From Wenjunlia vitaminophila DSM 41686 (GTDB lineage Bacteria; Actinomycetota; Actinomycetes; Streptomycetales; Streptomycetaceae), in contig NZ_KB904692.1 in NCBI RefSeq assembly GCF_000380165.1, positions 1-36,528 on the forward strand: a stretch of DNA of 36,528 nucleotides, in the 5' to 3' direction. Below, in pieces: positions 6,761 to 10,987 of this stretch (the stretch's first letter is position 1; each line of letters starts with the position of its first letter). A model generated the notes under the pieces. That model saw only the letters and a list, made by a program, of their open reading frames with translations, was not told the origin of the DNA and searched no databases. A program made the translations under genes and the position numbers.

Positions 6761-7519
6761 ATGGCCGACGCTCCTTACCAACTGATCCTCCTCCGCCACG
6801 GCGAGAGCGAGTGGAACGCCAAGAACCTGTTCACCGGGTGGGTTGACGTCAACCTCAACGCCAAGGGCGAGGAGGAGGCCGTCCGCGGCGGTGAGCTGCT
6901 GCGTGACGAGGGGCTGCTCCCCGACGTCGTCCACACCTCCGTGCTCCGCCGGGCGATCCGCACCGCAGCCCTGGCGCTGGACGCCGCGGACCGACACTGG
7001 ATTCCGGTGCGCCGCTCCTGGCGGCTCAACGAGCGGCACTACGGCGCGCTCCAGGGCAAGGACAAGGCGCAGACACTCGCCGAGTTCGGCGAGGAGCAGT
7101 TCGCCCGCTGGCGCCGCTCCTATGACACCCCACCCCCGCGGCTCGCCGACGACTCGGAGTTCTCGCAGGTCAACGACGCCCGCTACGCCGTGATCCCCCC
7201 CGAACTGCGTCCGCGGACCGAGTGCCTGAAGGACGTCGTCGAACGGATGCTGCCGTACTGGTACGACGCCATCGTCCCGGACCTGCTCACCGGGCGGACC
7301 GTGCTGGTGGTTGCGCACGGCAACAGCCTGCGCGGCCTGGTCAAGCACCTCGACGGCATCTCGGACGCCGACATCGCGGGACTGAACATCCCCACCGGCA
7401 TCCCGCTCCGGTACGAGCTGGACAGCGAGTTCCACCCGGTCACCAAGGGCGGGACCTACCTGGACCCGCAGGCGGCGGCAGCGGCCATCGAGGCGGTCAA
7501 GAACCAGGGCCGCAAGTAG
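6761..7519 (+). CDS. gpmA: 2,3-bisphosphoglycerate-dependent phosphoglycerate mutase
   Basis: The enzyme interconverts 3- and 2-phosphoglycerate in glycolysis and gluconeogenesis. The 252-residue length fits the cofactor-dependent family. The catalytic His is in [25 protein letters not shown] at the N-terminus. Further signatures are [19 protein letters not shown] and the second catalytic His in [19 protein letters not shown]. The ATG at 6761 follows a -10 box by seven bases. A strong hairpin follows the gene. Confidence 0.96.
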
Positions 7520-7549
7520 CAGCGGCGGAGAAGGGCAGCGGACACGTGC

Positions 7550-7583
7550 GCCCCGCTCCGGCCCGTCGGGGCCGGAGCGGGGC
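7550..7583. terminator. Bidirectional hairpin terminator after gpmA
   Basis: GCCCCGCTCCGGCCC (7550-7564) pairs perfectly over 15 bp with 7569-7583 around a four-base loop. It lies 31 bases past the gpmA stop and also beyond the end of the facing Cys-rich gene. There is no T-tract, as is common in this group. Confidence 0.75.
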
Positions 7584-7673
7584 GGTCACCGCCGTGCGGC
7601 GATGACCACAGCGGGGCGGTTGCCGCGGTGGGGCCCGACGGGCCCGTCACCGACGCGGGGAGGCGTCATCCGG

Positions 7674-7841
7674 TCAGCCGCAGCCGCCACCGCACGAGCA
7701 GGAGCCGCCGGACTGGCAGCCGCAGCCGCACGAGGGGCCGCAGCTACAGGAAGAGGCGGCGAGGAGCGCCACCTCGGGGCGCGGGTGCGCGGGTATCTCG
7801 GGTCGGACGTGCTCGCCGGTGCGGGTGGGGGAGTTCGGCAT
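7674..7841 (-). CDS. Small Cys/Gly/Ser-rich peptide of unknown function (metallothionein-like or RiPP-precursor-like)
   Basis: A 55-codon gene starts at ATG 7841 with a near-perfect AGGAGG five to six bases upstream. Residues 1-31 contain no Cys and read like a leader (MPNSPTRTGEHVRPEIPAHP, then a hydrophobic VALLAAS). The last 24 residues hold eight Cys and otherwise almost only Gly and Ser, in the pattern SCSCGPSCGCGCQ then a second CSC and a final GGGCG. Two readings fit. It may be a small metal-binding protein of metallothionein type. Alternatively it may be the precursor of a modified peptide, because a Cys-free leader with a Gly/Ser/Cys core is the layout of thiazole/oxazole precursors such as microcin B17. 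No YcaO, dehydrogenase or lanthipeptide enzyme lies in this window, which weakens the second reading. The gene faces gpmA and lies downstream of phoU on the same strand. Confidence 0.75.
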   Translation of the reverse strand: MPNSPTRTGEHVRPEIPAHPRPEVALLAASSCSCGPSCGCGCQSGGSCSCGGGCG

Positions 7842-8175
7842 GGTGCCCTCCTAGGCCGTCCTGGTCCTCTGGGCCGTGCCCCGGTCCTGGTGCCGCCGCC
7901 GGGGCCGGCGGCGGCACCGTGGCTGTCGGTCCTCCGGCAGCCGGCCCCGCGGGTGCCGACCACCAGGCGGCCGGCACCGCGGATGCCCACCTGGCCGCGG
8001 AACCGTGCCGCTCCCCCCAGTGAACGCCCTCCCGACTGGCGCATCAACAGCGCGTGGGTGCACTCGGACAGCACCTCCGCACCCCCGGCGGGGAACGGGC
8101 GGGCGGGAAGGGTCCGCGGGGCAGGTGCCTGGGCCGCCGGCGCCGCGACCGACCGGACGGTGCCCGCGGGGGCGC
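7842..8175. other. Gap between phoU and the Cys-rich gene, with a strong hairpin
   Basis: I find no supportable gene in these 334 bases. They hold the leader of the Cys-rich gene and the hairpin at 7889-7918. Short frames here have no ribosome binding site and an arginine- and proline-rich translation typical of noncoding high-GC DNA. Confidence 0.6.
7889..7918 (-). terminator. 14-bp hairpin between phoU and the Cys-rich gene
   Basis: GGTGCCGCCGCCGG (7889-7902) and CCGGCGGCGGCACC (7905-7918) form a perfect inverted repeat with a two-base gap. On the minus strand it lies about 260 bases past phoU and 48 bases before the Cys-rich start codon. It may end phoU transcription or act in the 5' leader of the peptide gene. 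Confidence 0.55.
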
Positions 8176-8844
8176 TCAGGTCCCCGGCGTCGCGGACAAC
8201 TCGTCCGCGTGCTCCCCGGTCACCAGGAACACCACCCGCTGCGCCACCGACACGGCGTGGTCGGCGAACCGCTCGTAGTACCGCCCGCACAGCGTCACGT
8301 CCACCGCGGTCTCGATCCCGTGCTGCCACCGGTCGTCCAGCAGGTGCTGGAACAGCGTCCGGTGCAGCAGGTCCATGGCGTCGTCGTCCTGCTCGAGCTG
8401 CATCGCCGCGTCCACGTCCTTGGTGGTGATCACCTGCCCGGCCTTGGCCACCAGGCGCTGCGCGAGCTGGCCCATCTCCAGGATCGTGGGGTGCAGGTCG
8501 GACGGCACCGCGGACGTCGGGTAGCGCAGCCTCGCCACCTTCGCCACGTGCCGGGCCAGGTCGCCGCAGCGTTCCAGGTCCGAGGTCATCCGCAGCGAGG
8601 TGACCACTATCCGCAGGTCCGTGGCGACCGGCTGTTGTCGCGCGAGCAGCGCGATGGCCCGCTGCTCCAGGTCGCGCTGGAGGTCGTCAACCCGTTCGTC
8701 GGCGGCGATGACGCTCTCCGCCAGCTTCAGGTCGGCGTCCAGCAGCGCGGTGGTGGCCCGCCCTATGGCGGACCCGACAAGCCGGGCCATCTCCACCAAG
8801 CCGTCCCCGATCGAGTCCAGCTCCTCGTGGTAGGCGTCGCGCAT
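8176..8844 (-). CDS. phoU: Phosphate signalling complex protein PhoU
   Basis: PhoU links the Pst phosphate importer to the PhoR-type kinase and dampens the phosphate response. The product has 222 residues with the two expected three-helix repeats. Repeat one begins MRDAYHEELDSIGDGLVEMARLVGSAI; metal-binding acidic and His motifs appear in SDLERCGDLARHVAKVA and ERFADHAVSVAQRVVFLVTGE. The ATG at 8844 has GAGAGGA a few bases upstream; longer upstream frames lack support. The gene is divergent from phoR, sharing a control region with a PHO-box-like repeat. Confidence 0.95.
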   Translation of the reverse strand: MRDAYHEELDSIGDGLVEMARLVGSAIGRATTALLDADLKLAESVIAADERVDDLQRDLEQRAIALLARQQPVATDLRIVVTSLRMTSDLERCGDLARHVAKVARLRYPTSAVPSDLHPTILEMGQLAQRLVAKAGQVITTKDVDAAMQLEQDDDAMDLLHRTLFQHLLDDRWQHGIETAVDVTLCGRYYERFADHAVSVAQRVVFLVTGEHADELSATPGT

Positions 8845-8991: not shown

Positions 8992-9052
8992 TCTTGGCAA
9001 CGTCTCTGCTCAGGACGCCGCCGACCGCTACGGGCCACCCGGGCTCCCCGCC

Positions 9053-9058
9053 TACGCT
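9053..9058 (+). promoter_or_regulatory. -10 box (TACGCT), leaderless start of phoR
   Basis: TACGCT is followed by seven bases and the ATG at 9066. There is no clear Shine-Dalgarno sequence. Confidence 0.55.
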
Positions 9059-9065
9059 GGTGAGC

Positions 9066-10310
9066 ATGGACATCAACGCGGCGGTGGCCGCAGCCAGCGC
9101 GATAGCCGGTCTGTGCACCGGTGTCGTCGCCGCGCTGTCCATTCGCTGGAGCGAACGGGAGCAGGCCGGGCTGACCCGGTCCTCCCTGCACACCGAGGCC
9201 GTCCTGCCACCCGGGGTGGACACCGTGCTGTCCGTGCTGCGTTCCTCCGCCGTGGTGCTTGACGAGGCCGACACCGTGGTCAAGGCCAGCTCCGCCGCCT
9301 ACGCCCTGGGGTTGGTGCGCGGCGGCCGGCTCGCGGTGGACCGGATGCTCCAGATGGCCAGGGAAACCCGGAGGGACGGCGAGATACGCCAGATCGAGCT
9401 GGATCTGCCGCGCCGCGGCAGCGGACGCGGGGAGGCGCTCGCCGTCTCCGCCCGGGTCGCCCCGCTCGGCTCCCGGCTCGTGCTGTTGCTCGTGGAGGAC
9501 CTGACCGAGGCCCGCAGGATCGAGGCGGTGCGCCGGGACTTCGTGGCGAACGTCAGCCACGAGCTGAAGACGCCCGTGGGCGCGCTGTCCCTGCTCTCCG
9601 AGGCGGTGATGGACGCCAGCGACGACCCGGAGGCCGTGATCAGGTTCGCCGGCCGGATGCAGGTCGAGTCCACCCGGCTGACCAACCTGGTCCAGGAGCT
9701 GATCGACCTGTCCCGGGTGCAGAACGACCACCCGATGCAGGACGCCGAACCGGTCGCGGTGGACGACCTGGTCAACGAGGCCGTCGACCGCTGCCGTAGC
9801 CAGGCCAACACCAAGCAGATCACCATGGCCTCGGGGCCGGCCCCGGGGCTGCGCGTCTTCGGCAACCGAGGCCAGCTCGCCGCCGCGCTCGGCAACCTCG
9901 TCGAGAACGCGGTCAACTACAGCCCCTCGCGGACCCGGGTCGGCATCGCCGGCCGCCGGATCACCGCTGGGGGCGTCAACCTCGTTGAGATCTCCGTCAC
10001 GGACCAGGGCATCGGCATCCCGGAGCGCGACCGGGAGCGGATCTTCGAACGGTTCTACCGGGTCGATCCGGCGCGTTCCCGCGCCACCGGTGGCACCGGT
10101 CTTGGCCTGTCCATCGTCAAGCATGTGGCCGCCTCGCACGGCGGGGAGGTCACGGTGTGGAGTGCCGAGGGCCAGGGCTCCACCTTCACCCTGCGCCTGC
10201 CGGAAGCGGCGCACCCCCGTCGCGACGGACGTGACAGCAAGGCCCCGGACCGGCAGGACCCCCTGCCGGGCACCCTCCCGTCCCTACCCGCCCCGGAGGT
10301 CCTGCCGTGA
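9066..10310 (+). CDS. phoR: Phosphate-responsive sensor histidine kinase (PhoR/SenX3 type)
   Basis: The protein has 414 residues. One hydrophobic segment spans about residues 5-26, then a PAS-like sensor region follows (about 55-150). A HisKA domain carries the phospho-acceptor His165 in DFVANVSHELKTPVGAL. The ATPase domain shows the N box (LGNLVENAVNYSP), G1 (DQGIGIP) and G2 (TGGTGLGLSIVKH). This is the SenX3/PhoR organisation, and its place between phoU and phoP fixes the pathway. The gene overlaps phoP by the four bases GTGA, so the two are translationally coupled. The longer upstream frame starting at 8994 is not used because the -10 box falls inside it. Confidence 0.94.
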   Translation: MDINAAVAAASAIAGLCTGVVAALSIRWSEREQAGLTRSSLHTEAVLPPGVDTVLSVLRSSAVVLDEADTVVKASSAAYALGLVRGGRLAVDRMLQMARETRRDGEIRQIELDLPRRGSGRGEALAVSARVAPLGSRLVLLLVEDLTEARRIEAVRRDFVANVSHELKTPVGALSLLSEAVMDASDDPEAVIRFAGRMQVESTRLTNLVQELIDLSRVQNDHPMQDAEPVAVDDLVNEAVDRCRSQANTKQITMASGPAPGLRVFGNRGQLAAALGNLVENAVNYSPSRTRVGIAGRRITAGGVNLVEISVTDQGIGIPERDRERIFERFYRVDPARSRATGGTGLGLSIVKHVAASHGGEVTVWSAEGQGSTFTLRLPEAAHPRRDGRDSKAPDRQDPLPGTLPSLPAPEVLP

Positions 10311-10987
10311 CCCGAGTGCTCGTCGTCGAGGACGAGGAATCGTTCAGCGACGCCCTGTCGTACATGCTCCGCAAAGAAGGCTTCGAGGTCGCCATCGCCC
10401 CGACCGGCCCCGACGCGCTGGACGCGTTCGAGCGCAACGGAGCCGACCTGGTGCTGCTCGACCTGATGCTGCCCGGGCTGCCCGGCACCGAGGTGTGCCG
10501 GCAGCTCCGCAACAGATCCAACGTCCCGGTGATCATGGTGACTGCCAAGGACAGCGAGATCGACAAGGTCGTGGGCCTGGAGATCGGCGCGGACGACTAC
10601 GTGACCAAGCCGTTCTCGTCGCGGGAACTGGTGGCCAGGATCCGCGCCGTGCTGCGCCGGCGGGGCGAACCCGAGGAGGTCGCGCCCGCCGCCCTGGAGG
10701 CCGGCCCGGTCCGGATGGACGTGGAGCGGCACGTGGTGACCGTCAGCGGCGCCAAGGTGGACCTGCCGCTGAAGGAGTTCGACCTGCTGGAGATGCTGCT
10801 GCGCAACGCGGGCCGGGTGCTCACCCGGATGCAGCTCATCGACCGGGTGTGGGGCGCCGACTACGTCGGTGACACCAAGACCCTGGACGTGCACGTGAAA
10901 CGGCTCCGGGCGAAGATCGAGCCGGACCCGGGGACCCCGCGTTACCTGGTCACCGTGCGCGGCCTCGGGTACAAGTTCGAGCCCTGA
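10307..10987 (+). CDS. phoP: Phosphate-regulon response regulator, OmpR family (PhoP/RegX3 type)
   Basis: This 226-residue regulator has a receiver domain with the acidic pair in VVEDEE, phospho-acceptor Asp52 in LVLLDLMLPG, Thr79 in MVTAK and Lys101 in VTKPFSS. A winged-helix DNA-binding domain follows, with the usual LKEFDLLEMLLRNAGRVLTRMQLIDRVWG and the wing ending RGLGYKFEP. It would bind GTTCACC repeats such as the one at 8959-8991. It starts with GTG inside the phoR stop codon and ends 24 bases before a terminator. Confidence 0.95.
   Translation: MTRVLVVEDEESFSDALSYMLRKEGFEVAIAPTGPDALDAFERNGADLVLLDLMLPGLPGTEVCRQLRNRSNVPVIMVTAKDSEIDKVVGLEIGADDYVTKPFSSRELVARIRAVLRRRGEPEEVAPAALEAGPVRMDVERHVVTVSGAKVDLPLKEFDLLEMLLRNAGRVLTRMQLIDRVWGADYVGDTKTLDVHVKRLRAKIEPDPGTPRYLVTVRGLGYKFEP

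Follow-up and report, generated by a model that had tools for sequence, protein, structure and literature searches.

In the stretch of Wenjunlia vitaminophila DSM 41686 DNA analysed here (the window, 36,528 nucleotides), the gene for a short Cys-rich peptide is probably mtpA, judged by position and family to be the orthologue of Streptomyces coelicolor SCO4227, and its product a metal-buffering peptide; taken as a whole, this is the best explanation of our observations. The identification as mtpA (SCO4227) follows from the place of the gene beside phoU. An earlier note on this DNA had called the gene unrecognised and its family possibly undescribed. That view has to be given up, as a counterpart is known beside the phosphate-control genes of Streptomyces and the name mtpA is said to have been in print since 2006, in work by Ghorbel et al. 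A supposed unknown has thus become a named gene that is near-universal in the Streptomyces group; family and locus are already in print, and the gene is largely ordinary. Possibly new are the lack of a Pfam or NCBIfam model for the window peptide, a branch of the family linked to cydAB, and a conserved promoter-like element.

Table 1. Coordinates of the peptide gene, its neighbours and associated sequence elements in the window.
Feature	Position	Strand	Evidence and remarks
gpm, phosphoglycerate mutase-type	6761..7519	+	PF00300 (His_Phos_1); converges on the peptide gene
mtpA-type peptide gene, 55 aa	7674..7841	-	ORF call, conservation, synteny
Shine-Dalgarno AGGAGG	7847..7852	-	5 nt before ATG (7839-7841); equivalents in relatives
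GC-rich inverted repeat	7889..7918		within the additional leader DNA that separates the promoter-like element from the gene
promoter-like element TTGATG-N17-TTCACT	8019..8047	-	boxes 8042-8047 and 8019-8024; conserved in relatives
phoU	8176..8844	-	PF01895; directly upstream of peptide gene, 334 bp gap; start set at the ATG of MRDAYHEEL
phoR/senX3-type histidine kinase	8994..10310	+	PF00512, PF02518; divergent from phoU
phoP/regX3-type response regulator	10307..10987	+	PF00072, PF00486

The peptide and its family

The peptide (MPNSPTRTGEHVRPEIPAHPRPEVALLAASSCSCGPSCGCGCQSGGSCSCGGGCG, 55 residues) is read on the minus strand, from 7841 to 7674. It consists of a variable N-terminal tail (residues 1-31) and a Cys part (residues 32-55), contains no F, W or Y, and carries all eight Cys within residues 32-54. 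The earlier note had described the open reading frame, its composition and its ribosome binding site correctly, including the textbook AGGAGG, which lies 5 nt before the ATG. The strand, missing there, is the sole correction: the plus-strand reading of bases 7674-7841 is not the gene. That the gene is real, as claimed, is confirmed by the open reading frame, the eight Cys in the last 24 residues and the conservation of the peptide. No other stop-free stretch of the window holds at least eight Cys in 24 residues, and 100 mononucleotide shuffles of the window yielded zero such stretches in total, although conservation is more telling than this shuffle test. In a single-sequence search the peptide was matched in 42 of 61 genomes (E<=0.01, its own genome counted), and within the order a 29-row profile matched 284 of 293 genomes (E<=0.001, own genome included), most of them from genus g9. 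On these counts a chance open reading frame was rejected.

When the search was extended to 394 genomes drawn from the class, 64 matched: 38 of the same family, 20 of family f19 and six in families f21, f27 and f40. The last six (L113-L118) were judged to be non-members after their sequences had been read. One of these, L117 in an f27 genome, is a 662-codon open reading frame for a large protein whose Cys-rich tail, the terminal CSCGSNCNCGH, resembles half of the MtpA core. No peptide match was obtained in at least one f19 genome (G336), and tblastn with the peptide found none on plasmids at E<=1. A scan with pieces of the window peptide as patterns identified Streptomonospora alba (Nocardiopsidaceae) as a named relative among the matches listed. 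From the likeness of its peptide to those of f19, we infer that f19 corresponds to Nocardiopsidaceae. Likewise, f1 appears to be Streptomycetaceae and g9 Streptomyces, judging from the phoU context, the size of g9 and the SCO4226-like gene that adjoins the peptide gene in some genomes.

The constant part of the family reads CxCxxxCxCGCxxGxxCxCG, whereas the N-terminal half is variable in both its length and its sequence. Alignment A1, which comprises 29 of an initial set of 31 peptides (the near copies L034 and L037 were omitted), has ten invariant columns, in window numbering C32, C34, C38, C40, G41, C42, G45, C48, C50 and G51; all are Cys or Gly, and no Ser column is invariant. The earlier note had advised looking for relatives with conserved Cys spacing, which these are, and for conserved leader residues. 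The outcome for the latter is mixed, since the N-terminal half is variable but a start of the form MxxSPTxP recurs in many members. After rows identical in peptide and in the 60 nt upstream had been merged, the family numbered 95 rows of 27-63 residues with 7-9 Cys, none of them before the core, and with an aromatic residue in 19; these rows were selected by a fixed Cys pattern, so that Cys invariance among them is by construction and alignment A1 provides the free evidence. A Shine-Dalgarno-like word and a start are present in 95 of 95 rows, the start being the one chosen for the best Shine-Dalgarno word. When 94 distinct DNA sequences of the core are compared, codon position 3 differs most often (0.34 vs 0.20 and 0.13); the contrast between positions is weaker when the comparison is with the window's own core alone (0.28, 0.16, 0.32). 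Three members (L017, L030 and L120) have 27 residues, start with MSGC and consist almost only of the Cys part, with good Shine-Dalgarno sites. Elsewhere in genome G092 there is a second, altered match (L119, CQCGPGYSCGCCRSGGPCQCGGGCS) with no clear Shine-Dalgarno site.

The composition of the last 24 residues also led the earlier note to consider the precursor of a modified peptide. In such a precursor, of the azole or thiopeptide RiPP type, the leader would comprise residues 1-31, and a distant YcaO enzyme would modify the Cys/Ser/Gly core. Precursors of the microcin B17 type likewise have a Gly/Ser/Cys-rich C-terminal part, the recurring MxxSPTxP start would suit a leader, and one of only two weak Pfam matches among 29 family members is to the putative bacteriocin YxzE (one member, E 0.13). 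Nevertheless, we regard such a precursor as very unlikely, because some members are leaderless, modifying enzymes are lacking among the neighbours scanned, and the peptide occurs in genomes with no YcaO match. The three 27-residue members begin directly at the Cys part, and alignment A1 has invariant Cys and Gly columns but no invariant Ser. The six window neighbours scanned (glycosyltransferase, YbjN, gpm, phoU, kinase and regulator) are neither modifying enzymes nor exporters, with no YcaO or dehydrogenase gene among them. YcaO (PF02624) matched 40 of 61 genomes. The search for it elsewhere in the window genome, which the earlier note had recommended, gave a single match on another contig (G000:C25), whereas 11 of the 42 peptide-bearing genomes gave none (G004, G010, G018, G019, G025, G028, G029, G043, G046, G048 and G050, of which G048 is only 77% and G050 90% complete). 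In all three respects, namely neighbours without enzymes, leaderless members and a presence independent of YcaO, mtpA differs from the microcin B17 type.

Place beside phoU and the published record of mtpA

In the window the gene directly follows phoU in the same orientation, with phoR-phoP divergent, as in the published layout. The Pfam names of the neighbours are His_Phos_1, PhoU, HisKA/HATPase_c and Response_reg/Trans_reg_C. Counting best-scoring matches (up to 30 per search), phoU adjoins the peptide gene at 62 of 64 distinct same-family places (19/21 and 47/47 loci, with four places shared), including places in g9, the presumed Streptomyces. The start of the kinase gene is visible in most same-family short loci, and gpm adjoins in part of the relatives. 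At two loci of genus g2 (L018 and L022) the stretch that separates the peptide gene from the sensor kinase contains no phoU match, while gpm and the kinase are kept. Outside the family the picture is different: no phoU match was found in the fetched DNA at nine f3 loci (<=1.5 kb each side) or 20 f19 loci (<=3 kb each side), and part of gpm was matched at 42-47% in five of the nine f3 loci.

In PMC2267785, SCO4226, SCO4227 ["Metallothionein protein (mtpA)"], SCO4228 (phoU), SCO4229 (phoR) and SCO4230 (phoP) are consecutive. According to PMC11019849, mtpA comes directly after phoU and is expressed for the most part from a promoter of its own, with read-through from phoU in addition; its product is treated there as a predicted metal-binding protein. 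PMC7866108 and PMC11019849 label mtpA a metalloprotein or metal-binding-protein gene. The window gene resembles MtpA/SCO4227 of S. coelicolor and S. lividans in its place beside phoU, divergent from phoR-phoP, and in the metallothionein or metal-binding label. In contrast, no SCO4226-like gene was found in the window genome, and the likeness is one of position and family. An SCO4226-like gene (PF14026) was present in 15 of the 39 genomes searched and gave no match in 24, the window's own among them; as the search did detect the family in those 15 relatives, its absence from the window genome carries weight. In five genomes, all g9 (G009, G072, G080, G090 and G105), this gene lies 144-283 bp downstream of the peptide match on the same strand, which yields the published order SCO4226-SCO4227-phoU-phoR-phoP. 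It lies away from the peptide gene in nine others, and G014 had no peptide place for comparison.

A link of the peptide gene to phosphate is shown by its position and by published expression data. PMC3282765 describes mtpA as metallothionein-encoding, induced at limiting phosphate and PhoP-independent. This conflicts with PMC4991794, in which SCO4227 is termed PhoRP-regulated; there it is at 0.14-fold under oxidative stress, which counts against a simple oxidative-stress role. The linkage to phoU could also mean that the peptide is a redox- or metal-responsive partner of PhoU/PhoR that informs the phosphate sensor of metal or thiol state instead of buffering metal, and a proposal for PhoU and the mtpA product is printed in outline in PMC7866108. 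We consider this improbable. The missing phoU in the fetched f3 and f19 DNA indicates that a PhoU partnership is not general, and in PMC11019849 the spatial antibiotic phenotype was recovered with phoU-phoRP when mtpA was left out, so that mtpA is dispensable for it.

Promoter-like element and leader DNA

Pairs of boxes resembling TTGAyG/C-N15-19-TT(C/G)ACT precede the gene in 26 of the 95 rows. In mononucleotide shuffles 0.04 would be expected, but as the pattern was drawn up after some rows had been viewed, this figure shows only that composition fails to explain the element. By group, it was found in 16 of 20 same-family rows outside g9, in 9/9 f3 rows, in 1/45 g9 rows and in none of the 21 rows of f19 and S. 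alba. Within g9, the first box, (CG)TTGAyG, occurs within 120 nt of the start in 41 of 45 rows, and the second box differs. A generic scan of 7500-8200 for sigma-70 promoters and terminators returned nothing.

A regulon sharing the element was considered and not borne out. We scanned 15 hand-picked genomes, most of them known to show the element, with the pattern TGCGCCNTTGATGCGCC, also written TGCGCC-N-TTGATGCGCC, allowing at most one mismatch. This gave 14 sites in 12 of the 15 genomes, 12 of them at the mtpA place, compared to five for a reversed control pattern; no site was found in G000 (the window's own genome), G016 or G017. As the genomes were hand-picked, the scan speaks for one gene per genome, not for the frequency of the element.

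The promoter-like match ends 177 nt before the ATG in the window, compared to 32-85 nt in the 25 other matching rows and 42 nt in G001 of the same genus. The window leader (7842-8018) is thereby 92-145 nt longer than that of the other matching rows. The fold of 7835-8020 has a z of -2.98. The extra leader, with its inverted repeat, may affect mtpA expression.

Probable metal buffering and a cydAB-linked branch

Small size, a high Cys content, CxC motifs and few or no aromatic residues are features of metallothioneins that the family shares. The window peptide matched no Pfam or NCBIfam model at E<=10, the 29 family members matched nothing in NCBIfam, and the second of the two weak Pfam matches, to Metallothio_5 (E 0.15), was again limited to a single member. 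Solved structures gave no match, whether the query was the isolated Cys part or the profile. As metallothioneins are a functional class, the missing model match lowers the probability of membership in a described sequence family and leaves the mode of action unaffected. Among known systems, MymT is a mycobacterial copper metallothionein of about 53 residues, likewise an actinobacterial Cys-rich peptide; its Cys spacing and context appear to differ. Fungal copper thioneins of the Neurospora type and plant type 1 metallothioneins are similarly short and Gly/Ser-rich with repeated CxC pairs, but homology to the window peptide was found neither in solved structures nor as a significant Pfam match.

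A metal-buffering protein is the best reading of the window peptide. The earlier note had suggested this as well, and the suggestion agrees with the published annotation of mtpA/SCO4227 and with the conserved CxC pattern. The peptide, in which no signal peptide is obvious by eye, would stay in the cytosol. Without metal, the apo-peptide would be unfolded; its seven to nine Cys could then enclose soft metal ions, either Cu(I) or Zn(II), in a single small cluster, by which the metal would be buffered or detoxified, and the N-terminal tail would be a dispensable extension. Its role might be to hold metal that is freed when phosphate and polyphosphate run low.

Which metal is bound can be argued either way. 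Cu(I) may be slightly favoured, given the CxC/Gly/Ser-rich pattern and the resemblance to fungal copper thioneins. Zinc is held by some bacterial metallothioneins, such as SmtA/BmtA and PmtA, and abstracts link bacterial metallothioneins with zinc; a zinc-specific storage or donor protein in place of a Cu(I)-thionein is therefore conceivable, though in our view doubtful. In PMC11019849, the mtpA promoter was raised by magnesium and was unresponsive to manganese or zinc, and loss of mtpA left the magnesium effect unchanged. These observations do not fit a zinc-induced metallothionein.

Returning to Cu(I) or zinc buffering by MtpA-type peptides in general, a second genomic context was found in f19. 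With a query taken from one of the 20 f19 loci (L093-L112), cydA was located <=3 kb upstream of the peptide gene and in the same orientation in 14 of these loci as well as in S. alba (L038); at L106, both CydA and CydB were confirmed by Pfam. A gene with no Pfam match follows the peptide gene, in the same orientation, in 17 of the 20 loci (the query's own included) and in S. alba. There is thus a branch of peptide genes downstream of cydAB, presumed from the sequences to be that of Nocardiopsidaceae. Among the titles listed by our literature searches, none dealt with this cydAB-linked branch.

The branch provides a second, independent context for the idea of metal buffering. More tentatively, MtpA-type peptides could form a separate actinobacterial thionein superfamily that lacks a Pfam or NCBIfam model. 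Its members would have become fixed at two sites of unrelated function, one next to the phosphate-control genes in what we take to be Streptomycetaceae, the other downstream of cytochrome bd oxidase genes in the likely Nocardiopsidaceae. If this holds true, the promoter element in Streptomyces (TGCGCC-N5-TGCGCC over TTGATG) would serve mtpA alone, and through the peptide Cu(I) buffering may be tied to both respiration and phosphate status.
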